30,923 nucleotides of DNA. Source: a virus. Below are positions 5,761 through 29,380 of this stretch, piece by piece (position 1 is the first letter of the stretch; the number at the start of each line of letters is the position of its first letter). The notes beneath the pieces are model-generated. The model was not told the origin of the DNA. It was given only the letters and a program-made list of their open reading frames with translations, and searched no databases. Location of the stretch: the IMG/VR virus record IMGVR_UViG_3300035698_011778, positions 1 through 30,923 of that record. One strand, given 5' to 3'. The position numbers and the translations under genes were made by a program.

Positions 5761-6075
5761 ATGAATGATCCAATTAAAGAAAAGTATAATGAAGTTATTG
5801 AATCAATAAGTGAAATGTTAGAGATTAATTATGATGCAATTAATGCTTTAGAAATAGTACAAAAGGAAAAAGGAATTGAACCTGATGAATATGATAATAA
5901 ATTATTATTACATGTAACTAAAGTGTTTGCTCATGTGTTATTCAATAAAGTTTATTTTAGAATGAAAAAGAAGACTACTTTTGAGCAACAGTGTGAGCTT
6001 GTAGAAGATTTAGGGGGTTCTATAAGAAAAATGATTAAAACCTGGACTGGGGTAGATTTGCATGATATTAATTAA
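5761..6075 (+). CDS. Hypothetical 104-aa helical protein
   Basis: Predominantly helical and acidic at the N-terminus (MNDPIKEKYNEVIESISEML), with a more basic centre (FRMKKKTTFEQQ). No membrane span and no recognised domain. First gene of the rightward transcript. Its last codons (the TGVDLHDIN end) and the leader of the next gene were copied in a segmental duplication (6044-6095 and 6393-6445). Function unknown. Confidence 0.6.
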   Translation: MNDPIKEKYNEVIESISEMLEINYDAINALEIVQKEKGIEPDEYDNKLLLHVTKVFAHVLFNKVYFRMKKKTTFEQQCELVEDLGGSIRKMIKTWTGVDLHDIN

Positions 6076-6088
6076 TAATATAAATAAT

Positions 6089-6394
6089 ATGAATGATCAA
6101 AAAATAGATGAAAATACAAGAAAAACAAATGCTAATGCGAAACTCCGAGACTTTATTGCTGTGCCATTTATATTTATAGGCCTTTTATTCTTAACGCTTG
6201 CAATGATAACTGGCAGTACATACACAATAAATAAAGTTCTAAAAATAGATGAAAATACAAGAAAAACAAATGCTAATATGAAACTCCGAGACTTTATTGC
6301 TATGCCATTTATATTTATAGGCCTTTTATTCTTAACGCTTGCAATGATAACTGGCAGTACATACACAATAAATAAAGTTCTAAAAAGTTTATGA
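6089..6394 (+). CDS. Small membrane protein with two tandem copies of a 47-aa unit
   Basis: I start it at ATG 6089 (MNDQKIDENTRK), because the ATG at 6062 lies inside the preceding gene and the usual AT leader precedes 6089. The protein is two copies, about 141 bases apart, of a unit made of a polar stretch (KIDENTRKTNANxKLRDF) and a long hydrophobic span (IAxPFIFIGLLFLTLAM) followed by ITGSTYTINKVL. So it should cross the membrane twice with the same local sequence. A third copy is a separate 41-aa ORF at 6437. UGA is the stop. Function unknown; superinfection exclusion or lysis timing are possible roles for such proteins, without direct evidence. Confidence 0.6.
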   Translation: MNDQKIDENTRKTNANAKLRDFIAVPFIFIGLLFLTLAMITGSTYTINKVLKIDENTRKTNANMKLRDFIAMPFIFIGLLFLTLAMITGSTYTINKVLKSL

Positions 6395-6540
6395 CTGGGG
6401 TAGATTTGAATGATATTAATTAATAATATAAATAATATGAAACTCCGAGACTTTATTGCTATGCCATTTCTATTTATAGGCTTTTTATTCTTAACGCTTG
6501 CAATGATAACTGGCAGTACATACACAATAAATAAAGTTCT
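6139..6540. repeat. Three copies of a ~102-base membrane-protein segment
   Basis: Nearly identical segments at about 6139-6240, 6280-6381 and 6439-6540, each encoding KLRDFIAxPF through INKVL. Copies 1 and 2 are a tandem 141-base repeat inside one gene. Copy 3 came with duplicated upstream sequence (6393-6438, equal to 6044-6090 with one obvious change), so leader and start codon were copied too. Confidence 0.9.
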
Positions 6541-6562
6541 AAATCCCCACCAAGATGTATAA
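6437..6562 (+). CDS. 41-aa single-copy version of the repeated membrane unit
   Basis: Starts MKLRDFIAMPFLFIGFLFLT and continues to INKVL, then a unique tail NPHQDV. The leader TTAATTAATAATATAAATAAT is identical to that of the two-copy gene. Its last codons (NPHQDV) are encoded by the 5' arm of the terminator stem at 6546-6616, so the gene ends inside the terminator. Confidence 0.55.
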   Translation: MKLRDFIAMPFLFIGFLFLTLAMITGSTYTINKVLNPHQDV

Positions 6563-11418: not shown

Positions 11419-11832
11419 ATGAAAGCAATTACCGTCAAGAACAAAGTGGGTCAACCTCTTAAGTTCAAAACCCCTGAAGAGCTAGAAAGAAAAATAAACA
11501 ATTATTTTGATAAATGTGATAAGAGAAAGAAAGAGATTATAAATAAGAAAGGTGAATTAGTATACATCAGTAGTCCAGAGCCTTATACAATGTCCGGTTT
11601 AGCTTATAGCTTAGGAGTAGACAGAGAGACAATATTAAATTATGCAAAACGAGAAGAATACTTTGGTACTATAAAGCTAGCTAGAGCCAAAGTACACTGT
11701 GATGTAGAGCGAAGATTGATGGAATTCAATAGTACTGGAGCCATATTTAATTTGAAGAACAATTTCGGTTGGAAAGATAAGACAGAACAAAATCTGAATG
11801 TTAAAATAGAAAAACCTATAATGGAAGTGTAA
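11419..11832 (+). CDS. terS: Terminase small subunit
   Basis: A 137-aa DNA-packaging protein. Residues about 12-30 (GQPLKFKTPEELERKINNYF), the helix-turn-helix segment YTMSGLAYSLGVDRETILNY (55-74), and the C-terminal FNSTGAIFNLKNNFGWKDKTEQ (103-124) are the conserved pattern of P22 gp3-like small terminases. It recognises the packaging site on phage DNA and presents the concatemer to the large subunit. The next gene overlaps it by one base (TAATG), so the two are translationally coupled. The C-terminal FGWKDKTEQ is a strong family marker. Confidence 0.85.
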   Translation: MKAITVKNKVGQPLKFKTPEELERKINNYFDKCDKRKKEIINKKGELVYISSPEPYTMSGLAYSLGVDRETILNYAKREEYFGTIKLARAKVHCDVERRLMEFNSTGAIFNLKNNFGWKDKTEQNLNVKIEKPIMEV

Positions 11833-13037
11833 TGGAGTTCAAAATAACAACCGCCACTAAAAAGATTAAAGCTCTTGATAAAAAGATAAGAGCTGTTTGT
11901 GGTGGTACTTCAGCAAGTAAAACTATTTCAGTGTTATTGTATTTGATCGCTAAAGCTCAAAGTGATAAACTCCCTACTCTTACTAGTGTTATATCGGAGA
12001 GTACTCCACATCTAAAGAGGGGAGCTATAAGGGATTTTAAGAATATACTTGAAGGACATAATTATTGGAAAGATCAAAATTGGAATGCTACAGATTTCAT
12101 ATATACTTTTAGTACTGGAAGCAAGATAGAATTCTTTTCAGCAGACCAAAGCGATAAGTTACGAGGCGCAAGGCGTGATAGGTGTTTTATAAATGAAGCT
12201 AATAATGTTTCATTAGATGCGTTTGATCAATTAGAAGTAAGAACTAAAGAGTTTTTATTCCTTGATTGGAACCCGACAAATGAATTTTGGTTCTACACTG
12301 ATATCAAGGATAACCGCAATGACGTTGACTTTATAACACTTACCTACAAAGACAATGAAGCACTAAGTCAAGAGATTATTGATAGTATAGAGTCAAGAAA
12401 GAATAGGAAAGGTTGGTGGCTAGTATATGGATTAGGACAGCTTGGAGAGGTGGAAGGTAAGATATATAAGGATTGGGCAATAATCGACGGTATACCGCAT
12501 GAAGCAAGGCTTGAGCGGTATGGGTTAGACTTTGGATTTTCAAATGATCCTACTGTGATTGTAGGAGTGTATTATTATAATGGTGGATATATTATTGATG
12601 AAGTAGCTTATTCAAAAGGATTAAGTAATAGACAAATTGCTGATATTTTACTTGCTCAAGAGAATAGCGTGCTTATTAAAGCGGACAGTGCAGAGCCAAA
12701 GAGCATTGAAGAGATTCAAAGCTATGGGGTGAATATAGTAGGTGTGAAGAAAGGTAGAGATTCGGTTGCACATGGTATTCAGTTTGTACAAGATCAGAGA
12801 ATAAGTGTCACTAAGCGCAGTATCAACACAATTAAGTGCTATCGTAATTATTTATGGAAAACAGATAAAGACGGTAAGATACTTAATGAACCTGAACATA
12901 AATTTAGCGATCCGATGGACTCAATTCGCTATGGAATGACAGGAATTAAAGGAAATAATGGTAATGATGAGGATTTGCAAAGATTCGCATTACATCAAGC
13001 AGAGTCTGTTTATAGTTCTATTGCTGGCGTTTTATAA
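11832..13037 (+). CDS. terL: Terminase large subunit
   Basis: Packaging ATPase/nuclease, 401 aa. Walker A-like GGTSASKT at 24-31 (variant, with Ala in place of the usual Gly), Walker B with catalytic Glu in FINEAN at 119-124 (E122), coupling segment LDWNPT at 144-149. The RNase H-fold nuclease domain follows: GLDFGFSND at 231-239 (D233), KADSAEPKS at 283-291 (D285) and the SDPMDSIRYG end at 359-368 (D363). Shorter than P22 TerL, close to PBSX/Terminase_3-type proteins. Together with terS and the portal it forms the packaging motor. A headful mechanism is plausible from the P22-like order but not shown. Confidence 0.9.
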   Translation: MEFKITTATKKIKALDKKIRAVCGGTSASKTISVLLYLIAKAQSDKLPTLTSVISESTPHLKRGAIRDFKNILEGHNYWKDQNWNATDFIYTFSTGSKIEFFSADQSDKLRGARRDRCFINEANNVSLDAFDQLEVRTKEFLFLDWNPTNEFWFYTDIKDNRNDVDFITLTYKDNEALSQEIIDSIESRKNRKGWWLVYGLGQLGEVEGKIYKDWAIIDGIPHEARLERYGLDFGFSNDPTVIVGVYYYNGGYIIDEVAYSKGLSNRQIADILLAQENSVLIKADSAEPKSIEEIQSYGVNIVGVKKGRDSVAHGIQFVQDQRISVTKRSINTIKCYRNYLWKTDKDGKILNEPEHKFSDPMDSIRYGMTGIKGNNGNDEDLQRFALHQAESVYSSIAGVL

Positions 13038-13101: not shown

Positions 13102-15216
13102 ATGGATAGAAAAACAAGTGCATATATACAAGATGAACAGTTTGACGTTCCAAAGTATGAGCCTAATGAGTATGAAATACTTCATATTTCGCATGTCTAT
13201 ACTAGATTACAAGATATGAAAGATCATGTTGAGAATCTAGGCTTGTATGATGAGTGGGGGGAAGCTGAAAAGTATTATATCAATGACCAGATACCTAGAA
13301 AGAGTAATGAGTTGCCTAAAATCAATCTTGCTAGTGAGATTGAAATAGTTGAGACAAAGAGTAGCGAAGAGACAAAAGTATTGCCTGAAGTAGTTTTGAA
13401 ACCTGTATATGATGATGATAAAGAGAAAGTGGAAGCATTACAAAAGATAATCGAATATATAAAAGAGAAGAACAATGATGATCTATTGAAATCTAATATG
13501 TTAAAGTATAAGAATATTTACGGAGTAGCTTTTCAGAAGATATATTGGAAAGAGGTTTGGAGAGACATAAAATTTGTTACAGGTGAAGAGTCTGACGGTG
13601 AATATATAGGGACTTTGAATTGGAAGAAGGAGCGAGTATTGAAATGGAGAGATATATGTATTGAGAATATAATGCCCCAGCATGTACTATTCAGTGAAGA
13701 AAGTAAAAAGATAGAGGATGCTAATGAGGTGATTCAACTTTTTTATTTCAATGATATAAATAAGGCAAGAGAAGAATTTGGAATATTTAAGAATTTCAAG
13801 TATGTAAAGAAAGGACAATTTCAAGATGAAATATTAGAGTTGTTTAAAAAGCGTGATATTAATTTTGATGATGAAGATTTAGATATTATGGGAATGTATT
13901 ACTGGAATATTGCAAAAGACGAGTATTCAATATTCTTAAATGGTGTATTGTTAACTCAATATGGAAAGAATGGAGGTAATCCTATTCCGTGTTTATTCTG
14001 GAAAGATCACCCATTCACTAAAGCATCATGTAGACTTATGCCAGGTGGTAGAGAATTCTATCCAAAAGGAGATGTTGCATTGGTACAGAGGATAAAAGAA
14101 TGTAAGAATGTATTAATCAATGCTATTAACAGGGTAACACAGACTAATAGTAAAACTGCATTGGTTGTACCTAAGGAGCTGGCAATGTATTTACAAAAGC
14201 TTGGTTTTGCATGGGAGGATGCAAACATTTTACCAGTAAGTACAGATGAGCAGAGTAAAATGACAAGACCAATTACAATACAAGCTGATATAAATGGGGC
14301 TATGGCTTTACTACAAAAGCTTGATGAATATCAGACTGTTATTCTAGGGGTAGACACACATAGTTTACTTTCATCAGTTCAAGAGACAGCTACAAAGACA
14401 GCTATAAGAGCAGAAACAGCAATGAAAAGGATAGGTGATGGTCTTAAAATGATAGAGCAGGAAGCATTGGTCCGTAAAATAAAGATTATACTTGCATTAT
14501 TAAGACAATATTATAAAGAGACTGAAGATTATCTTGATATTAAGAATCTAAAGAATGGGAAAATGAGTAAAGTAACAGTTCAGAAAACTATACCAATTGA
14601 AGATGAAGCCTTTTACTGGACTGAGGAATTGAAGCCAGTAACACTTGAAGAGGTCCAGGGCATAGAGGGTATCACCAATGAGTTTATTGATAAAGTATTT
14701 TGGAGTGAAGATGGGAATAACTTTGAATTCCTAGTAAGAAATGAGGATGAATTAAAACATGTGAATGCATTTAAGTTTTTACCTAAAGGAGTTCAAAACA
14801 AAGTGATAGCATTGATAAAAGGTAAAACATATAATAAGCTTAATAAGGATAAAGCAGAGGGAGAAACAACACATTTAGAAATAAAAAAAGAATTATTTGA
14901 AACTGAATATGAGATAAAAATAGTTGCAAGAGGGACATCAAGTTACAGTGAGTTATATGATAGAGAGAAGAGTGATTCTATGATGGAAAGATTTTTAGGT
15001 AATCCCAACGTAAATCAAAATGAACTAGTGAAACAGAATATAATAGCTAACGGGATTAATCCTGATAAGCTAGTGAGAGATGAGCAAGAGGTAGCGGCAG
15101 AGCAAGAGCAAGCAGTAATGGAAGAAGAAATGCAGAATCAGCAAGGTAATCAAGAAGTAAATCAGCAAGAAGTCATTAACCAAGTATCAAGTGGGCAAGG
15201 TGACGAAGTAAAATAG
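13102..15216 (+). CDS. Portal protein (P22-like, 704 aa)
   Basis: Directly follows terL and has portal size, near the 725 residues of the P22 portal. The central part has features often seen in large portals: the tryptophan-rich KIYWKEVWRDIKFV (about 148-161), the W-R-D-I-C-I-E-N-I-M-P segment giving a domain boundary (about 185-200), a crown-to-stem region with CLFWKDHPFTKASCRLMPGG (about 298-317), and a long helix region with QETATKTAIRAETAMKR (about 430-446). Residues about 650-700 are Gln/Glu-rich, like the C-terminal barrel of P22 portals. Twelve copies would form the DNA channel at one capsid vertex. Confidence 0.75.
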   Translation: MDRKTSAYIQDEQFDVPKYEPNEYEILHISHVYTRLQDMKDHVENLGLYDEWGEAEKYYINDQIPRKSNELPKINLASEIEIVETKSSEETKVLPEVVLKPVYDDDKEKVEALQKIIEYIKEKNNDDLLKSNMLKYKNIYGVAFQKIYWKEVWRDIKFVTGEESDGEYIGTLNWKKERVLKWRDICIENIMPQHVLFSEESKKIEDANEVIQLFYFNDINKAREEFGIFKNFKYVKKGQFQDEILELFKKRDINFDDEDLDIMGMYYWNIAKDEYSIFLNGVLLTQYGKNGGNPIPCLFWKDHPFTKASCRLMPGGREFYPKGDVALVQRIKECKNVLINAINRVTQTNSKTALVVPKELAMYLQKLGFAWEDANILPVSTDEQSKMTRPITIQADINGAMALLQKLDEYQTVILGVDTHSLLSSVQETATKTAIRAETAMKRIGDGLKMIEQEALVRKIKIILALLRQYYKETEDYLDIKNLKNGKMSKVTVQKTIPIEDEAFYWTEELKPVTLEEVQGIEGITNEFIDKVFWSEDGNNFEFLVRNEDELKHVNAFKFLPKGVQNKVIALIKGKTYNKLNKDKAEGETTHLEIKKELFETEYEIKIVARGTSSYSELYDREKSDSMMERFLGNPNVNQNELVKQNIIANGINPDKLVRDEQEVAAEQEQAVMEEEMQNQQGNQEVNQQEVINQVSSGQGDEVK

Positions 15217-15241: not shown

Positions 15242-15478
15242 ATGTGTGAAATTACAATTACAAGTTTACGAAAGAATGTTGAGCAGATTGTACAAAATTT
15301 AAAAACTTTGAAGGAAGAACATGCTAACTCAGAATGTTCAGAAAGTGAAGACAGAGGAGAAGTTATGGCGAATTATATGCTTTCATATCGGCACTTAGAA
15401 GATGCTAAAATGAGGCTAGGAAAAGTATTACAAGCTATTGAAGGAGGTGTTTCTATTTATGATAAAGAAGAAAAGTAA
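15242..15478 (+). CDS. Candidate Acb2/Tad1-type hairpin protein (cyclic-nucleotide sponge)
   Basis: A 78-aa, two-helix protein: helix one about residues 5-26 (LRKNVEQIVQNLKTLKEEH), a polar acidic turn (30-40), then helix two EVMANYMLSYRHLEDAKMRL (about 40-59) followed by GKVLQAIEGGVSIYDK. The second helix and GG-S-Y-D tail resemble, from memory, small phage proteins assigned to the Acb2/Tad1 hairpin domain. Acb2 and Tad1 sequester nucleotide signals made by CBASS or Thoeris and so block host defence. The identification rests on pattern memory only. It lies between portal and scaffold genes, where phages often insert small accessory genes. Confidence 0.5.
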   Translation: MCEITITSLRKNVEQIVQNLKTLKEEHANSECSESEDRGEVMANYMLSYRHLEDAKMRLGKVLQAIEGGVSIYDKEEK

Positions 15479-15493
15479 TTTAACTAAACAATA

Positions 15494-15724
15494 ATGGGAA
15501 ACAGCCTGAATAAAATGTTGGCAAGCGGAGAGGGTAGGGAATTGTTAGAAGATTTGTATAAGTTTAGAGATAGCAAAAAGGATAAAATATTTGAAACCTT
15601 GAAAGAGAATGCTGATAAAGCAGTACTAGAGAGACATGTATATATGGGTATAGAAGAAACAATAAACTATATAGAATTATTAAAAGAAGTGTCAGAAAAG
15701 GAAGTAAATAAAAAAATCGTTTAG
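15494..15724 (+). CDS. Hypothetical 76-aa protein before the scaffold gene
   Basis: Helical, charged: MGNSLNKMLASGEGRELLED, then KFRDSKKDKIFETLKE, and a C-terminal helix with a Met-Gly-Ile turn (MGIEETINYIELLKEV). The early GEGRELLEDLYKFRDS segment resembles small proteins between portal and scaffold genes of other phages, whose role I do not know. A 64-base perfect-looking RNA hairpin starts 27 bases after its stop. Confidence 0.6.
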   Translation: MGNSLNKMLASGEGRELLEDLYKFRDSKKDKIFETLKENADKAVLERHVYMGIEETINYIELLKEVSEKEVNKKIV

Positions 15725-15814: not shown

Positions 15815-15854
15815 TACCCATATCTCTTTTTTTTATTATTTAATTTTGAATCCT

Positions 15855-16640
15855 ATGGATACTCAAAAGACAAAAGAGCAAGACGCTCAAACAGTTGATC
15901 CTGAAAAGGATACCAATGAAGAAGAAGTTGTCGAAGGTGGTGAAGGAGGTGCTGAAGTAGAAGCCTCCGAAGAAGAAGAAGCCCCGGAGGAATGGCAACA
16001 GAAATTTAACAAACAATCATCAGCTGCACAGAAAAAGATTACAGAAGCTAATGAGAAGTTATTTACTGCACACAAGAAAATCGCAAATACTGATCCTAAT
16101 CATATTTTAGAATTATCAAAAGGCGATGATAAAGATGTTAAAATGGCAAAACATCTTTCAAAAGAACTTTATGATTTATCACTTGATAGAGTTCTTAAAA
16201 GTTTACAGCCTGATGAAGAAACAAAAGAGGAACTAGAACAAAGATTACGTAAAGAGATTGAAAGAGAATCAAATAAAAACGCTTCTTACACTTTCTTTAC
16301 TAAGTCTAATTCTATCCTTGATGAAAATTCATCTGATTATAATGAAAATATAAAAAAGGTCTTCGATGAACGAGTGGAAAGGCTTATGGGTAATGAGATT
16401 TTGACTATAGAAGAAACAAACCAGATTTTAGATGACGCGTTTTACTTATCAAACAGAGGAGGAAAAGACCCTGAAAAAGCTCAAGCTTCAATTGCTTCTG
16501 CTGGAAGTGGTGGTATGGTTTCAAACGTGAAGCCTATGCCTTCAAAAGCTTTCAGAGAAATAGATGAAGAACTCATGGCTGCAGGATTTTCGCCTTTAAG
16601 TGATGAAGCTAAAAAACTTATGAAACAAGGAAAGCTTTAA
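15855..16640 (+). CDS. Scaffold protein
   Basis: I start it at ATG 15855 (MDTQKTKEQDAQ); a TTG in the same frame at 15846 is possible but less likely. The first ~55 residues are strongly acidic and Glu/Pro-rich, the middle is a long helical region (QKKITEANEKLFTAHKKI, LEQRLRKEIERE), and the C-terminus ends with MAAGFSPLSDEAKKLMKQGK. Composition and position between portal and coat genes fit a capsid scaffold, which assembles the procapsid and is then lost. No protease motif is seen. The long hairpin at 15751-15814 is just upstream. Confidence 0.65.
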   Translation: MDTQKTKEQDAQTVDPEKDTNEEEVVEGGEGGAEVEASEEEEAPEEWQQKFNKQSSAAQKKITEANEKLFTAHKKIANTDPNHILELSKGDDKDVKMAKHLSKELYDLSLDRVLKSLQPDEETKEELEQRLRKEIERESNKNASYTFFTKSNSILDENSSDYNENIKKVFDERVERLMGNEILTIEETNQILDDAFYLSNRGGKDPEKAQASIASAGSGGMVSNVKPMPSKAFREIDEELMAAGFSPLSDEAKKLMKQGKL

Positions 16641-17245: not shown

Positions 17246-18259
17246 ATGGCAATTGAAACAAGAGCTACTTTAGGAGACTCTTTTATGAAAGGTTTGTCAG
17301 CTAAATTGTACGACATAAAAAATCAATCCGATTTAGCTTATACGACTGCTTTCTCATCGGCTCTAGGGGTAGAAAACAATATGTTTACTCAGCTTTTTAA
17401 AACTGAGAGTTCAAATCAATCTCGAGAACAAATTGATGGAAAAACGGGAGTAGGTTATTCTACAGATACAGCTGAAGGAGCAGATTTTGCTTCAGACAGT
17501 CGAGCTGCTGGATATACTACTCAGTTTAACTTCCGAAAACTTACAAACGGAATTACAATAACACTTGAAAATCGTTTGGATCGTATTGGTGATAAGAAAC
17601 TAAATGAAATGAGAGATCTTCTTATTGGAGCTAAAATGACTCAAAACAGAGATGCTTTCACCTTATTCAATGATGCATTTACAGCACAAGCTTCTCTTCC
17701 TAGTATTATTACATATTATGGAGACGGTGTTCCAGCTTGTTCTACTCTTCATCCTATCAAAGAAACTACAACTTCAAATACAACTCAATCAAATGCTTCA
17801 GCTACTGGTATTGCTCTTTCTGAAACTCATCTAGAAACAGCAAGACAAGCTCTACGAAGACAAACAGATGACAAAGATCTTCCAATGGCAATCGGATCTT
17901 CTAATCTTATTCTTCTAGTTCCTGATTCATTAGAAAAAACAGCAGTTATTCTTACAAATGGTAAACTACGACCTTCAACAGCTAACAATGATATTAATGT
18001 TTACGATGGTATCGTAACTGTTATTTCTTCAAAATGGCTTAATTCTCAAAACGGAGGTTCTGATACAGCTTGGTTCTTAATTGATTCAATGAATTCTCCA
18101 GTTATCTTTTTTGAAAGAAGTCCTATTACTACCTCTGTATATACTACAGATTCAAACAAGAACGTAACTATGGATTTTTATACTCGTTACCAAGTAGGTA
18201 ATACAGATTTCCGTGGGATATGGGGATCAAAAGGTGACGGAGCAGATTATTCTAGTTAA
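17246..18259 (+). CDS. Major coat protein
   Basis: 337 aa, single copy directly after scaffold and decoration genes, the canonical position. The N-terminal helical arm (MAIETRATLGDSFMKGLSAK), a repetitive Gly/Asp loop (DGKTGVGYSTDTAEGADF, the expected E-loop region), the long helix with ALRRQTDDKDLPM, the strand NLILLVPDSLEKT, and the C-terminal domain with TRYQVGNTDFRGIWG are typical of HK97-fold coat proteins of the Mu gpT-like class. It forms the icosahedral shell. Gene codon use is richer in C and G at third positions than its neighbours, as expected for a highly expressed gene. Confidence 0.75.
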   Translation: MAIETRATLGDSFMKGLSAKLYDIKNQSDLAYTTAFSSALGVENNMFTQLFKTESSNQSREQIDGKTGVGYSTDTAEGADFASDSRAAGYTTQFNFRKLTNGITITLENRLDRIGDKKLNEMRDLLIGAKMTQNRDAFTLFNDAFTAQASLPSIITYYGDGVPACSTLHPIKETTTSNTTQSNASATGIALSETHLETARQALRRQTDDKDLPMAIGSSNLILLVPDSLEKTAVILTNGKLRPSTANNDINVYDGIVTVISSKWLNSQNGGSDTAWFLIDSMNSPVIFFERSPITTSVYTTDSNKNVTMDFYTRYQVGNTDFRGIWGSKGDGADYSS

Positions 18260-18380: not shown

Positions 18381-20759
18381 ATGGCTGAAACAAATTTTGA
18401 CATTGTTGTCGCTAATGAGTTTCGTTCGAATAGTTCGTCTGATGGCATGATAATTCCTGAACTATCTACTAATCCAACAACACAATCCGATGGTGAATTG
18501 TGGCTAATGGATACAGGAGAAGTAAGAATTAAAACATCTTTAGGTATAACTGAACTAGGGGGCACAGCTTCAACAAGTCTAGACTCTGCTTATAATGGCG
18601 GAGCAGAAATCGCAGTGGATTCAGGAGCAGTAACGCTTACTGATACACAAACAACTACAGGAGGTGGTCTATTGATCACTAAAAGTGGAAAAATAACATC
18701 AACACATTCAGCTTCAATCTTTCATATTAATTCTACAGGAGCACATGATACTTCAGGAGATGTAACATTTCTTGAGATATCAGTTGGTTCAGAAGCTATT
18801 ACAGGTGCAGTAGTAGGTGCAGAGATAGAGATGAACGCTAATGGTGATTCAGCTATTACTCTTACTAAAGGAGCAATGACAATCACTGATGGTGCTTTAA
18901 CACTTACAAGTGGAGCATTAACAATGAGTTCTGGTAACTTCACAATGAGTTCAGGTAACGCTGATATTACTGGTACTCTAGCAGTATCAGGAACTTCAGG
19001 ATTACAAAACGTAACAGCTTCAGGAACTTATATAGGTCAAGGAGCTATGATTCTTGATGGTGATAACGCTGAAATGTTATTGATTAGAACAAACGGTGAT
19101 GCTGCTGATATACTTACTATTGATACTACAGGTGATGCAGGAGATACTACAATGCTTCTAACACCAGAGAATACTACAGGTACAGGTTTACATATTGATG
19201 GTTCAACTATCACAACAGGTGATGCTCTTAAAGTAACAGTAGTAGCAGGAACTATGACAGCAGTAGGTGCAGCTATTTCAGTTGTAGCTGATGGTACAGA
19301 AGTATTCGCAGTAAGAGACGACGGTTCAGTTTATTCTAAATCTACAGCAGAAGGAACAACAGCATTTGAGGTTGTTGCTGGTGATGTGGTATTAGATGAT
19401 GGTGATCTAACAGTTTCTGGAGGTAATACTTCACTAGCTAGTAATGATAACGCATCTACATTAGTAGTTGCTAATAACACTATCACAACAGCAGCTTCAA
19501 TGATTTCAGCTTCATCTACAAGTTTAACAACAGGAGCTTTGATGACATTGAATGCTAACAACACAACTCACACTGGTGAAGTGTTAGAAATTATCTCTGC
19601 TCAAACTACAACAGGTACAGCAGCAGGTATTACTGTGGTAATGGCAGACGTTACTACAGGTGCAGCAAGAGGTTTAGATATCACAATGGTAGGAGCAACT
19701 ACTACAGCTAAAGGTATATCTGTAACAATGGATGCTTTGACAACTGGTGATATGCTTTATCTAGACAATGGCGGAGACACCTTTACAGAAGGAAGTGGAT
19801 TCTATATCAACTGTAACGATGATAATGCTTCTAAGTTTTCTGTAAGTAAGTATGGTGCAACTGTAATAGCTGGTAAAGCAGCAGGAACAACAGCAATGAC
19901 TCTTTCACTTGGTGATCTGGTTATTACTGATACTGATGCTTCGACAATCAGTTCAGCAAACGGTACAGGAACACTTCTTACATTAGATAATGTAGCTGGA
20001 GTAATCGCTTCAGATACAGCAGTTCTTAGTTTAGATGCAGGTGGAGCAATAGCTTCAGGTGGTAATATTCTTAGAATAGCACCAACAGGAACTCCAAATG
20101 CAGGTGCAATTGGTATTGAGTATGTTGGTGCAGCTAAAGCAATGACAGCTGTATATGTAGATGGTGATCCAACAGCTAGTGATCTAGTTACTATTAATTG
20201 TGGAGGTGCATTAACTGCTGATTTAGCAGCATTAGCTGTAAATACAGATGGTGCTTTAGCTACAGGTAGTAACGCTTTCAGAGTTGATGTAACAGGAACA
20301 CCAGCAAGTGGAGCAATCTACGCTGAATTTGATTATGCAGGCGTAACAGACACTAATGAGAATATTGGTGTTAAGATCGATGCAAGTGCTAAGAAAGTAC
20401 AAGCTCTAGTAATTGATGCAGCTCCTTTGGCTGGATCAACTGTTCTAGTAACTTCAACAGGAGTATTAGCAGCAGATAAAGCAACTATGGAAGTAGTATC
20501 TAATGTATCAGCTAACGGTGCAGATACTGCAGTTGTAAGAATAGAACAATCTCATACAACTGGTGTATCACCTTGTTTAGCTCTTAAACAAGATGATGTT
20601 TCACAAGCGTTTATGAACTTTGAAGGTACAGCTACAGCAGATACAGCTTCTTCAATTTCAACTCATGGAACAGCAGGTGCAACAACAGACTTTATAAGAA
20701 TAGAATTAAACGGAGTAGATGCGTGGATAGCAGTATCTACAAATGATCCTTCAGCTTAA
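18381..20759 (+). CDS. 792-aa repetitive virion fibre protein
   Basis: Very rich in Ala, Thr, Gly, Ser and Val with short degenerate repeats of the kind 'TTGALTxxSGxxT', as in GALTLTSGALTMSSGNFTMS. Such strings form beta-helix or trimeric beta-spiral shafts. N-terminus (MAETNFDIVVANEFRS... ELWLMDTGEVRIKTS) looks like an attachment head; the C-terminus (FMNFEGTATADTASSISTHG, then RIELNGVDAWIAVSTNDPSA) is typical of environmental phage virion proteins. It directly follows the coat gene, so it could be a head fibre rather than a tail fibre. Codon use is uniform and even richer in A/G/T-rich triplets than the coat gene. Confidence 0.6.
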   Translation: MAETNFDIVVANEFRSNSSSDGMIIPELSTNPTTQSDGELWLMDTGEVRIKTSLGITELGGTASTSLDSAYNGGAEIAVDSGAVTLTDTQTTTGGGLLITKSGKITSTHSASIFHINSTGAHDTSGDVTFLEISVGSEAITGAVVGAEIEMNANGDSAITLTKGAMTITDGALTLTSGALTMSSGNFTMSSGNADITGTLAVSGTSGLQNVTASGTYIGQGAMILDGDNAEMLLIRTNGDAADILTIDTTGDAGDTTMLLTPENTTGTGLHIDGSTITTGDALKVTVVAGTMTAVGAAISVVADGTEVFAVRDDGSVYSKSTAEGTTAFEVVAGDVVLDDGDLTVSGGNTSLASNDNASTLVVANNTITTAASMISASSTSLTTGALMTLNANNTTHTGEVLEIISAQTTTGTAAGITVVMADVTTGAARGLDITMVGATTTAKGISVTMDALTTGDMLYLDNGGDTFTEGSGFYINCNDDNASKFSVSKYGATVIAGKAAGTTAMTLSLGDLVITDTDASTISSANGTGTLLTLDNVAGVIASDTAVLSLDAGGAIASGGNILRIAPTGTPNAGAIGIEYVGAAKAMTAVYVDGDPTASDLVTINCGGALTADLAALAVNTDGALATGSNAFRVDVTGTPASGAIYAEFDYAGVTDTNENIGVKIDASAKKVQALVIDAAPLAGSTVLVTSTGVLAADKATMEVVSNVSANGADTAVVRIEQSHTTGVSPCLALKQDDVSQAFMNFEGTATADTASSISTHGTAGATTDFIRIELNGVDAWIAVSTNDPSA

Positions 20760-21719: not shown

Positions 21720-22409
21720 ATGAGAAATAATTTTAATTTATTGGTCACAGAAGCTAAGAAAAATCTTGAAGGTAATTCAGGAGATAATCTTGATGAACAA
21801 AGAAAACAAGTAGAAATTTTAAATCTAGAAAGAGCTCAATATGTTACTGATGCTATTGTTGCAGAGAATAATAGGCTTACTGAATCTAATAATAAAATAC
21901 AAGCAGATGTTTCAGCAGCAAAGAATCTAAAAGCAGAACTTGAGAAGGAATCAAAAGAATTAGAAGCTGATAATACACATAATAAAAAGATCCAATCAGA
22001 ACTTGACTCTAGTATTAGTGCAGGAGAGGCTATGTATAGTGATCTTATAGAAGAGAAAGAAAGAGAATCGCAGAGTTTAGAAGAGGAGATAGAGTTTAGG
22101 AAAGAATATTTATCTAAGAATAAAAGTCTAAAAATAGAGAATGAAAGTATCAAAAAAGAAATAGAGGTTAGTCTAATAATGGTAAAGGATAATTACAAAA
22201 AGGTTGGTGTTGCTACTGTTGAATTTGTTGAATTAAGTATTGAATTAGAAAAAAAGAGAGATGATTTAGAGAAAGAAAAAGAGGAATTAGCTGAAACTGT
22301 TAAAGCGTTTAATAAAAAGAAAAGTAATTTTAACCATGACATGAAAGTTTATGAGAGACGTATTAATAGGCATTATAAAATTTTAAATCGTAATCAAATA
22401 AAATTATGA
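21720..22409 (+). CDS. 229-aa coiled-coil protein
   Basis: Almost all helix with heptad-like charge patterns from about residue 20 to 220; no hydrophobic span. Stop is UGA inside the next start (ATGA, 22406-22409), so it is translationally coupled to the seven-repeat fibre and probably made in step with it. A rod or fibre chaperone, or a structural rod component, is plausible. No domain recognised. Confidence 0.55.
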   Translation: MRNNFNLLVTEAKKNLEGNSGDNLDEQRKQVEILNLERAQYVTDAIVAENNRLTESNNKIQADVSAAKNLKAELEKESKELEADNTHNKKIQSELDSSISAGEAMYSDLIEEKERESQSLEEEIEFRKEYLSKNKSLKIENESIKKEIEVSLIMVKDNYKKVGVATVEFVELSIELEKKRDDLEKEKEELAETVKAFNKKKSNFNHDMKVYERRINRHYKILNRNQIKL

Positions 22410-24637
22410 GTGCATTTTCTAATCCTGAAGATAACTACAGATTTACTATTCTTGAAGAAGACATGGTTGAGAATCTGTCAGCTGCTGGTATTACAACTGC
22501 TATAGATGATGATTCTATGGGTACAGCTTTAGCCACTAATGTTTCAAGTGCTGAATCAATTAAAGCTTATGTTGATGCTCATGCCTATAGTAGCGAAACT
22601 TCTATAGAGTTAGGAGAAAATATGACAGCAGAAGATTTAGTTAGGATAATTAATGATGGAGGGGCTAAAGCTAAGAAGATTGTGGAATCTAAAACTGCTT
22701 CTATTGGTACTGCTGTAGTATTTGAAAGTGCTTCTACAAGATATATTTCATCTTGTTATGATAGCACGAATGGAAAAGTTGTTATAGCTTACCAAGATGA
22801 TGCTAATTTTGATTATGGGACAGCAGTTGTCGGGACAGTTAGTGGTACAGCTATAAGTTTTGGAACAGTTGTAGTATTTGAAAGTGCTAATATTACTTAT
22901 ATCGATTGTTGTTTTGACAGTACAAATGGTAAAGTTGTTATAGCATATCAAGATGGTGGCAATGCTGCTAAAGGAACAGCGATAGTAGGAACTGTTAGTG
23001 GTACAGATATAAGTTTTGGTACTGCTGTAGTATTTGAAAATGCTACTACAAAAAATGTTTCATCTTGTTATGATAGCACGAATGGAAAAGTTGTTATAGC
23101 TTACCAAGATGATGATAATTCTGATTATGGGACAGCAGTTGTCGGGACAGTTAGTGGTACAGATATAAGTTTTGGTACTGCTGTAGTATTTGAGGCTGGA
23201 CATACTGATTTGATTGCACCTTCATTTGATAGTACAAATGATAAAGTTGTTATTGCGTATAGAGACCAAACCAATTCTCAATATGGAACAGCAGTTGTCG
23301 GGACAGTTAGTGGTACAGATATAAGTTTTGGTACTGCTGTAGTATTTGAAAGTGCTTCTACAAAATATGTTTCATCTTGTTATGATAGCACGAATGGAAA
23401 AGTTGTTATAGCTTACCAAGATGATGATAATTCTGATTATGGGACAGCAATAGTCGGAACAGTTTCAGGAACAGCTATAAGTTTTGGTACTGCTGTAGTA
23501 TTTGAGGCTGGAAAGACTGATTATATTGCATCTTCATTTGATAGTACATATGGTAAAGTTGTTATAGCATATCAAGATGGTGGCAATGATGGTAAAGGAA
23601 CAGCGATAGTAGGAACTGTTAGTGGTACAGATATAAGTTTTGGAAATAAAGGAGTATTTGAAAATGCTACTACAAATCATATTTCATCTTGTTATGATAG
23701 CACGAATGGAAAAGTTGTTATAGCATATCAAGATGGTGGTGAGTCTAACTATGGTACAGCGATAGTTTATCAACCAGCAGGTACAACCTATTATTATAAT
23801 GATTGTGTTGGGGTATTACAAGAAACAGGAACAAGCGGACAAAGTAAAAATGTAATGTTACTTGGAGGTATTTCAACAGCACATAGTGGAGAAACTCCTG
23901 GAACTAATGCTTACATACAAACAAACGGGAAAATAGGTACAACTGCAACTGATTATCCTTTAGGAGAGTTTGTTTCAGCTACAGAACTTGTATTAGCTGA
24001 AAAAACTAGAAGAATACTAGATGAAGATACTCTTACTTCTGATAGTAATACTGCATTAGCAACACAACAGAGTATTAAAGCTTATGTTGATGCTACAACT
24101 CTTCAAAAATCTTTTGATGTAGGACAAACTATTACTATCGCTGATACAGATAATCAAACACTACTTATTACACAAAGTGATACAACAAATAATCCCGATG
24201 CTGTACAGATAGTTAATGCAGGAACAGGTGATTCTTTATTTCTTGACCAGAATGGAATCGGTATAGCTCTTAATATAGATACAGAAGCAACAACAACAGA
24301 TGCAATAAATGTTGATGCTGATGCTATTACTACAGGAGTTTTAGCTAGACTAGCTTCTGATAGTGCCGATACTACAGCAAGAAATTTAGTAGAGATAATA
24401 AACGACAATACAGCAGCAGTTGGGACTACTCCTTTAATGATACAGCAAGACGCTGTAACAAGTACTAACTTTAAAAAATGTGCTACTTTTGCAGGATTTT
24501 CTATATGGATTTCAGATGGTACAACAGCAGAAGGAGCGTTAACAGGGGTTGAAGGAGATATATGTTTAAATGGTGGTACTGGTGCTGGTCAGACAGCTTT
24601 CTGTGATGCAGCAGGAACAAATTGGACAGATATGTAA
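22406..24637 (+). CDS. 743-aa fibre protein with seven-repeat propeller-like domain
   Basis: N-terminus (about 1-100) has a linker motif ATNVSSAESIKAYVDAH that recurs in the middle as ALATQQSIKAYVDAT. Residues about 100-455 are seven repeats of ~50 aa with the core 'SFGTAVVFExxxTxYISSCYDST' and 'NGKVVIAYQDxxNxxYGTAxVGTVSG'. Seven repeats of this length suggest a seven-bladed beta-propeller. The last ~110 residues (from about 630) match those of the fibre gene at 28298: 'IINDNTAAVxxTPLMIQQDA', 'VTSTNFKKxxTxxGxxIWxS', and a Cys-containing GDICLNG tip. Likely a tail or head fibre with a receptor-binding end. Confidence 0.7.
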   Translation: MSAFSNPEDNYRFTILEEDMVENLSAAGITTAIDDDSMGTALATNVSSAESIKAYVDAHAYSSETSIELGENMTAEDLVRIINDGGAKAKKIVESKTASIGTAVVFESASTRYISSCYDSTNGKVVIAYQDDANFDYGTAVVGTVSGTAISFGTVVVFESANITYIDCCFDSTNGKVVIAYQDGGNAAKGTAIVGTVSGTDISFGTAVVFENATTKNVSSCYDSTNGKVVIAYQDDDNSDYGTAVVGTVSGTDISFGTAVVFEAGHTDLIAPSFDSTNDKVVIAYRDQTNSQYGTAVVGTVSGTDISFGTAVVFESASTKYVSSCYDSTNGKVVIAYQDDDNSDYGTAIVGTVSGTAISFGTAVVFEAGKTDYIASSFDSTYGKVVIAYQDGGNDGKGTAIVGTVSGTDISFGNKGVFENATTNHISSCYDSTNGKVVIAYQDGGESNYGTAIVYQPAGTTYYYNDCVGVLQETGTSGQSKNVMLLGGISTAHSGETPGTNAYIQTNGKIGTTATDYPLGEFVSATELVLAEKTRRILDEDTLTSDSNTALATQQSIKAYVDATTLQKSFDVGQTITIADTDNQTLLITQSDTTNNPDAVQIVNAGTGDSLFLDQNGIGIALNIDTEATTTDAINVDADAITTGVLARLASDSADTTARNLVEIINDNTAAVGTTPLMIQQDAVTSTNFKKCATFAGFSIWISDGTTAEGALTGVEGDICLNGGTGAGQTAFCDAAGTNWTDM
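22704..23775 (+). repeat. Seven imperfect ~150-base coding repeats
   Basis: Repeat units start near 22704, 22858, 23016, 23175, 23325, 23484 and 23637. Some adjacent segments are almost identical in DNA (for example GATAGCACGAATGGAAAAGT recurs at least four times), so recent expansion or gene conversion is likely. Confidence 0.85.
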
Positions 24638-28297: not shown

Positions 28298-29380
28298 ATG
28301 GCAGAAGACTTAACACGAAAGGTTTCAAGATTAGAAAGACAGTTAAACACTGTTTCTCAAAGTACTTCATATTCTGGTGGCTTTCCTCCTAATCCTTCAC
28401 CGTGGCAACAACATACTGATATGAAAGAAAGTGCAGCTTATCAATTTAATCCTGTTACTAAAGTATGGGAATCTTTTGATATAGTTGTAACTAATGATAG
28501 AGCAATACGATCAGGACAGACAGTTTATAATACAGGTACTGGTTTCTGGTTAGGTAACGATGATGGTACACCTAAATTCTCTATAGGTAATGGTATATCT
28601 GATTTAACATGGAATGGTACAATATTAACTATTACAGGAGCTATCAACGCAACTACGTTTGCCTTTGGGAATCCTTTGGTAGCAGTTTTAAGTTGGGGTA
28701 GTACTGGATTGCTTGTTACTGGTAGTTCTACTGGTGATACTATAACAATTGATCAGAACGCAAACGGTACAGCTTTAAATATAGATAGAGATATTACAAA
28801 TGTAAATGCAGCTAACTCTAATTGTGTAACAATAACAGATACGACTGTAATTACTGATATGTCAACTGATGCTAAAAGTGGCACGACTTTGTCAATTACA
28901 AGTGGAGTAATTGAAACACTTGGGACAATAACTGATACAAGTAAGGTTTTAACACTTACACAATCTCATGCTGATTGTACTGGTAATTGTGTTTATATTA
29001 ATAATGATGCGACCGCTTCTATAACTCTTAATATTGATTCAGAAAATACTACTACTGATACTATTAATGCTCAAGTAGATGCTATTACAACAGGTTCTAT
29101 AGCAAGATTTTATTCTGATAGTGCCGAGACAGGTACAAGAGACTTAATAAAAATAATAAACGATAATACAGCAGCAGTAAATGTTACTCCATTAATGATA
29201 CAACAGGATGCAGTAACAAGTACTAACTTTAAGAAAGTAATAACAGCAGGAGGAGTTACTATATGGACATCTGATGGTACAACACCTAATGGTAATCTAT
29301 CAGGTACAGCAGGAGATATATGTTTGAATGGAGCTGGTAGTGCTATATTTTTCTGTACTGGCACGACAAGTTGGACTTAA
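28298..29380 (+). CDS. Tail fibre sharing its C-terminal tip with the 743-aa fibre
   Basis: 360 aa. N-terminus is a short coiled coil (LTRKVSRLERQLNTV), then a virion linker region (FWLGNDDGTPKFSIGNGISD, LTWNGTILTITGAINATTF) familiar from structural fibre proteins. Beta-repeat shaft from about 110 to 235. The C-terminal ~110 aa are homologous to those of the fibre at 22406: TTTDTINAQVDAITTGS, IINDNTAAVNVTPLMIQQDA, VTSTNFKKVITAGGVTIWTS, then GDICLNG with paired cysteines and TTSWT at the end. It probably forms a trimeric receptor-binding tip. Confidence 0.65.
   Translation: MAEDLTRKVSRLERQLNTVSQSTSYSGGFPPNPSPWQQHTDMKESAAYQFNPVTKVWESFDIVVTNDRAIRSGQTVYNTGTGFWLGNDDGTPKFSIGNGISDLTWNGTILTITGAINATTFAFGNPLVAVLSWGSTGLLVTGSSTGDTITIDQNANGTALNIDRDITNVNAANSNCVTITDTTVITDMSTDAKSGTTLSITSGVIETLGTITDTSKVLTLTQSHADCTGNCVYINNDATASITLNIDSENTTTDTINAQVDAITTGSIARFYSDSAETGTRDLIKIINDNTAAVNVTPLMIQQDAVTSTNFKKVITAGGVTIWTSDGTTPNGNLSGTAGDICLNGAGSAIFFCTGTTSWT

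Follow-up and report, generated by a model that had tools for sequence, protein, structure and literature searches.

The phage described here carries, next to its portal-like gene, an open reading frame (ORF) of 78 codons, and the question raised by this locus is whether the encoded protein captures the signals of host defence. Acb2 sequesters the signals of CBASS, and Tad1 those of Thoeris. The original prediction had read the ORF as a candidate anti-defence sponge of this type, a two-helix protein encoded between portal and scaffold. The window analysed here is the whole of a 30,923-base IMG/VR virus record.

The gene and its surroundings

The ORF is present at 15242-15478 with the sequence first quoted for it (translation: MCEITITSLRKNVEQIVQNLKTLKEEHANSECSESEDRGEVMANYMLSYRHLEDAKMRLGKVLQAIEGGVSIYDKEEK), and its start lies 25 bases past the stop codon of a 704-aa portal-like protein. 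The features that surround it are as follows.

11419-11832: small terminase, TerS (PF16677, E 1.1e-20)
11832-13037: TerL
13102..15216, + strand: portal or head-tail connector of 704 aa, the upstream neighbour (phrog_332 E 1.3e-6, phrog_449 E 4.6e-4)
15242..15478, + strand: 78-aa hairpin protein (ATG ORF of 78 codons, with homologues)
15494..15724, + strand: 76-aa ORF, the downstream neighbour, with no confident family
15846..16640 (ATG alternative 15855), + strand: acidic ORF of 264 aa, likely scaffold from its position
17246..18259, + strand: major capsid protein (PF25209 Phage_capsid_4, E 3.7e-12)

The length of the ORF is weak evidence by itself, because shuffling the 639-base gap 500 times produced an ATG ORF of 76 aa or more in 19 cases. 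Homologues are decisive: tblastn against viral sequences (E <= 1e-3) returned 48 loci homologous to the 78-aa protein, and the family assembled below comprises at least 104 distinct proteins. The 78-aa ORF is therefore a real gene. Its predicted location between portal and scaffold is borne out on the portal side, while the scaffold is assigned from position (portal, 264-aa ORF, major capsid protein) and composition. The 264-aa ORF is thus a likely scaffold; it had no family match, and a 178-aa ORF separates it from the major capsid protein.

The nearest relatives of TerL are found in Flavobacterium phages (44.5% identity). A Shine-Dalgarno-like motif was seen at 0 of the 34 gene starts checked in the window, in agreement with the non-Shine-Dalgarno initiation that had been proposed; the gene leaders are A+T rich, and many have a TTTAA-like stretch approximately 8-20 bases upstream of the ATG. 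These features are consistent with a Bacteroidota-like host.

Elsewhere in the window, the proteins at 22406-24637 and 28298-29380 have a common C-terminal segment, IINDNTAAV.TPLMIQQDAVTSTNFKK...GDICLNG. Low-complexity repeats are related among the proteins at 18381-20759, 22406-24637 and 28298-29380, which suggests repeated fibre modules. Near-identical small hydrophobic peptides, KLRDFIA[MV]PF[IL]FIG[LF]LFLTLAMITGSTYTINKVL, occur in tandem at 6062-6562; one ORF encodes two of them and the ORF after it the third.

A family from metagenomic phages

The family was gathered by protein search and then by alignment search (the 48 viral loci), supplemented with a degenerate DNA pattern encoding R-H-x-E-[ED]-A-x-M-R that found at least 119 stretches. 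The combined set of at least 104 distinct proteins reduces to 85 after clustering; its members belong to metagenomic phages and almost all are unnamed. They are characterised by the motif N-x2-L-[AS]-[YF]-R-H-L-E-D-A-x-M-R-x-G-K-x2-Q-A-x2-G-G-x-S-x-Y-D. Residues R50, H51, E53, A55, M57, R58, G60 and K61 are near-invariant, which is partly imposed by the search pattern and filter; the R50-K61 set is also invariant, or nearly so, in an earlier 33-sequence alignment that was itself collected with similar motifs. Outside the selected residues, conservation is very high in the helices (R10 95%, E40 94%, N44 95%, L47 99%, D54 100% and Q64 100%) as well as in the C-terminal tail (G69 99%, S71 98%, Y73 81% and D74 88%). 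Helix 1 is variable except for R10.

Among genome assemblies, relatives occur in seven contigs alone, nearly all of them MAGs and from varied phyla. No family member was found by tblastn with five queries in 50,697 isolate phage genomes, nor with one query in plasmids, and PHROGs gave weak, scattered matches with no recurring family. Two variants were observed. The member at L045:5854-6519 has a C-terminal extension of approximately 120 aa, and its gene is flanked by those for a ParB-like protein and a DNA methyltransferase. A second subfamily (L120, L129, L190 and L191) has LAxRHLEDARMRLGVAL-like helices without the GGxSxYD tail; TerL lies directly downstream of the L129 member, and a TerL match lies approximately 1 kb upstream of that in L191.

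Predicted fold and distant homology to Acb2

An AlphaFold2 model built from the 33-sequence alignment is an antiparallel two-helix hairpin (mean pLDDT 88.8, pTM 0.72). This agrees with the two-helix protein first described, and with the helical hairpin for which a structure prediction had been proposed. Its parts correspond to the DNA as follows.

15245..15328, + strand: predicted helix 1, residues 2-29, in which R10 is the sole strongly conserved residue
15344..15439, + strand: predicted helix 2, residues 35-66, with the motif E-x2-A-N-x2-L-[AS]-[YF]-R-H-L-E-D-A-x-M-R-x-G-K-x2-Q-A
15440..15466, + strand: C-terminal tail E-G-G-V-S-I-Y-D-K, residues 67-75, with G69, S71, Y73 and D74 conserved

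The tail is modelled with low confidence (block mean pLDDT 61). The model has the two-helix hairpin expected of the Pfam family PF24729 (Acb2_Tad1_hairpin), a generic fold that is weak evidence by itself. Indeed, Foldseek (PDB, BFVD) and VIA-align returned generic helical hairpins and no specific match. The T4 Acb2 protein Vs.4 with cGAMP (7uq2) appeared at Foldseek rank 32 with a TM of 0.62, and at VIA-align rank 50 with a Z of 8.1; since many unrelated hairpins stand alongside it, this match does not discriminate and was counted neither for nor against a relationship.

Sequence profiles are more informative for the family than for the single protein. Searched by itself against Pfam-A, NCBIfam and the PDB sequence set, the window protein has no match, and running the PF24729 model over the window found nothing. 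With the same model (profile length 58, curated cut-off 27 bits), 24 of 33 relatives are matched, every one below the cut-off; the best E is 1.2e-5, and the best relative scores 24.9 bits over profile positions 8-53 of 58. Formal membership of PF24729 thus fails, with the window protein unmatched and all family relatives under 27 bits. As background, the model gave no match at E 1e-3 in 296 Bacteroidota genomes and none above 22 bits in 396 Actinomycetota genomes, and the positive controls scored 70 bits (T4) and 34 (SBSphiJ7 Tad1). A genuine Tad1 relative from a Verrucomicrobiota genome reaches 26-29 bits only, so that a score of 20-25 bits is not out of the ordinary for a true but distant member.

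When compared with an 18-sequence Acb2 profile, the family scores 27.5 (probability 69%), against 15.9 for the best of 100 shuffles and 11.1 for the reversed control; before the alignments were cleaned, the comparison was weaker, with a probability of 21%. The 85-sequence family alignment scores 24.5 with the Acb2 profile, and the decoy maxima are 20.7 (shuffled) and 19.0 (heptad-preserving). Against the Tad1 hairpin profile alone the family does not rise above the decoys, and a PDB profile search with the family found coiled coils and similar structures with E above 0.2. The strongest link between the family and Acb2 is a pair of uncharacterised phage proteins, L142 and L132, that match PF24729 above its cut-off (57 and 39 bits respectively) and have the RHxEDAxMR helix in common with the family. 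Their helices read TLAFRHMEDAVMR in L142 and TLALRHVEDAHMR in L132, and L142 in addition has a full Acb2-type N-terminus, YRTLSEEE...EIKDMG, alongside the helix LTLAFRHMEDAVMRAVKHI. Both were selected on the helix motif, and the independent identities are L-A-F before RH together with K and I after it. Unlike the window protein's family, neither has the GK-x2-QA-x2-GGxSxYD continuation that marks it.

The stretch in common is short and helical, and the structure searches gave generic hairpins; the match could in principle stem from convergent amphipathic-helix composition in a helical protein unrelated to Acb2 or Tad1. We consider this very improbable: heptad-preserving shuffles stay below the observed score, the same Pfam family is picked by 24 of the 33 members, and the two above-cut-off proteins keep identities with the family outside the search pattern. 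The sequence comparisons instead indicate with good confidence that the family is distantly homologous to PF24729 proteins, a conclusion that holds for the family and not for the single sequence. The profile search proposed with the original prediction yielded nothing for the window protein itself, which counts against that prediction and would by itself defeat it; the relatives matched below the cut-off, the Acb2 profile score above all decoys and the L142/L132 motif speak for true distant homology.

Two further observations concern Verrucomicrobiota. One genome carries two copies (L103 and L106) of a 105-aa chromosomal protein that ends in LAIRHLEDASMRLRRELGD and scores 23 bits with PF24729; it may be a bacterial protein related to the hairpin. 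The Tad1 relative L099, encoded in a Verrucomicrobiota genome, has an extra N-terminal region of approximately 110 aa.

Pocket residues, gene context and probable function

How far the family retains the binding residues of its characterised relatives was read from the profile alignment, in which M75 of T4 Acb2 corresponds to M57 of the window protein. In T4 Vs.4, Y8 and F82 stack cGAMP, the contacts comprise Y8, H11, K23 and R79, and the hexamer interface includes L29, A66, A73 and A77 (PMC10097602); cGAMP binding needs Y8 and F82 (PMC10097602, PMC12657218). R79, which forms a salt bridge with cGAMP, aligns with K61, an invariant basic residue. Among the interface residues, A73 aligns with A55 (99%), A66 with S48 (A in 82%), L29 with L20, and A77 with L59. 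K23 aligns with E14 in the window protein (K in 61% of relatives), F82 with the invariant Q64, and T68 with the invariant R50; Y8 and H11 have no counterpart in the profile register, so that the stacking pair Y8/F82 is absent. Within the contact set Y8, H11, K23, R79 and F82, R79 alone is conservatively kept.

A true Acb2 function, with cyclic di- or trinucleotides held in the known pockets of a protein whose sequence has diverged, is improbable on this comparison. The size and fold are Acb2-like, K61 stands at the position of R79, A66 and A73 are kept as A or S48 and A55, and the Acb2 profile score exceeds all decoys; however, Y8 and F82, both needed in T4, and H11 lack counterparts, and K23 is replaced by E14. 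T4 Acb2 binds less tightly when it carries the T68M substitution (PMC12657230), which places R50 and Q64 near the Acb2 pocket position with a different chemistry, as would suit another ligand or another way of binding it. Because the stacking pair is missing, a ligand would probably be bound otherwise than cGAMP is in Acb2, and base stacking could fall to the conserved aromatics Y49 and Y73.

Among known sponges, Acb2 proteins (T4 Vs.4, 7uq2; the p26-type of Pseudomonas and Vibrio phages, 8h2j / 8ixz) are likewise small single-domain hairpins of 75-95 aa with the helix 2 pattern L-x2-[AG]-x-M-x3-[RK], but they lack the invariant R50, H51, E53, D54, R58 and Q64 of the family and its longer GGxSxYD tail. 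In some Tad1 proteins (SBSphiJ7 and relatives) the C-terminal hairpin reads T-H-[LV]-E-E-A-x-M (ALTHLEEAMMW in L099), resembling R-H-L-E-D-A-x-M of the family. In contrast, the Tad1 N-terminal beta-sheet domain with its invariant Q, G and N-G is absent from the all-helical 78-aa protein, and the C-terminal R-T-x2-R-x4-V-E-G-T (VEGT tail) is absent from the family. With Acb4 and Tad2 the protein possibly has a task in common, the sequestering of nucleotide signals. Both differ from it in fold: Acb4 is reportedly not a structural homologue of Acb2, Tad1 or Tad2 (PMC11722364), and Tad2 forms a tetramer that contains beta-strands (PMC12043709). The resemblance to Acb2/Tad1 first proposed points the right way at the superfamily level, where distant homology is supported, but filing the protein as Acb2, as Tad1 or as a formal PF24729 member fails: the cGAMP pocket is mostly not kept and the Tad1 binding region is missing. 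"Acb2/Tad1-type sponge" is reasonable as a functional reading, as opposed to a demonstrated membership, and the description that suits the protein best is that of a new and divergent branch within the Acb2/Tad1 hairpin superfamily.

On balance, we think it somewhat likely that the protein is a divergent oligomeric hairpin sponge whose inter-protomer pocket has been re-tooled for an anionic, nucleotide-derived signal. The gene would encode a small two-helix relative within the superfamily that most likely forms a higher oligomer through helix 2, by analogy a hexamer. A small anionic host signal, probably derived from a nucleotide, would be held between protomers, in a pocket made up of N44, R50, H51, E53, D54, R58, K61 and Q64 from helix 2 together with R10, Y49 and the GGxSxYD tail. 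We infer that such capture would keep defence effectors from their signal, in the manner of Acb2 against CBASS and of Tad1 against Thoeris. The very high conservation at unselected positions (N44, D54, Q64, G69 and S71) is what would be expected for a chemically fixed ligand.

Essential machinery, too, is typically conserved this strongly. TerL, portal or capsid was recognised in 38 of 114 distinct loci, and in nearly all of those 38 the family gene shares their strand, at distances of up to approximately 5 kb in either direction; a single family gene on the opposite strand lies 7.5 kb away. It is often an immediate neighbour: before TerL in L129, L156 and L002, after TerL in L122, L030 and L025, and directly after the portal in the window and in L181. 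The family could serve the packaging or head module as an accessory, such as a small helical factor associated with portal or terminase, and would then reuse the hairpin fold without binding a signal. We regard this as unlikely, as the order varies from approximately 5 kb before TerL to approximately 5 kb after it, and a TerL, portal or capsid gene is recognisable at only those 38 loci. Other loci have the gene flanked by a ParB-like protein and DNA methyltransferases, or have it downstream of a tail-fibre-like gene; the window moreover has its separate small terminase, and the family's absence from the isolate phages searched is unlike core machinery. The proposed setting inside a morphogenesis operon hence applies to this phage but is not constant across the family. 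Annotated Acb2/Tad1 homologues also adjoin head or tail genes (tail, prohead-protease, peptidase), so the location of the gene does not help to decide for a sponge or against one.

Three further candidates were rejected: an obligate portal-scaffold morphogenesis role as a general rule, given the varying neighbours; a small terminase identity, given the separate TerS; and an abc2 anti-RecBCD match (E 0.2), which was dismissed as chance.

With at least 104 distinct members in uncultured phages, the family is almost unannotated and is missed by current cut-offs. In staphylococcal phages, the RNA that activates CBASS comes from terminase genes (PMC10686824); the position of the family gene beside terminase genes is only suggestive of a link to this terminase-derived RNA. 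More tentatively, the family might represent a third large, unnamed branch of hairpin sponges, carried by uncultured phages that infect several groups of hosts. Its pocket, new and built from R/H/D/R/K/Q plus GG-S-Y-D, would take up a defence signal unlike those of Acb2 and Tad1, and its genes would often lie beside packaging genes, which can trigger CBASS through their RNA or their products. If the protein is a sponge, the reach of signal sponges would widen to host groups without known counter-defence, and its pocket residues, which differ from those of Acb2 yet are nearly invariant, may point to an unidentified defence signal.
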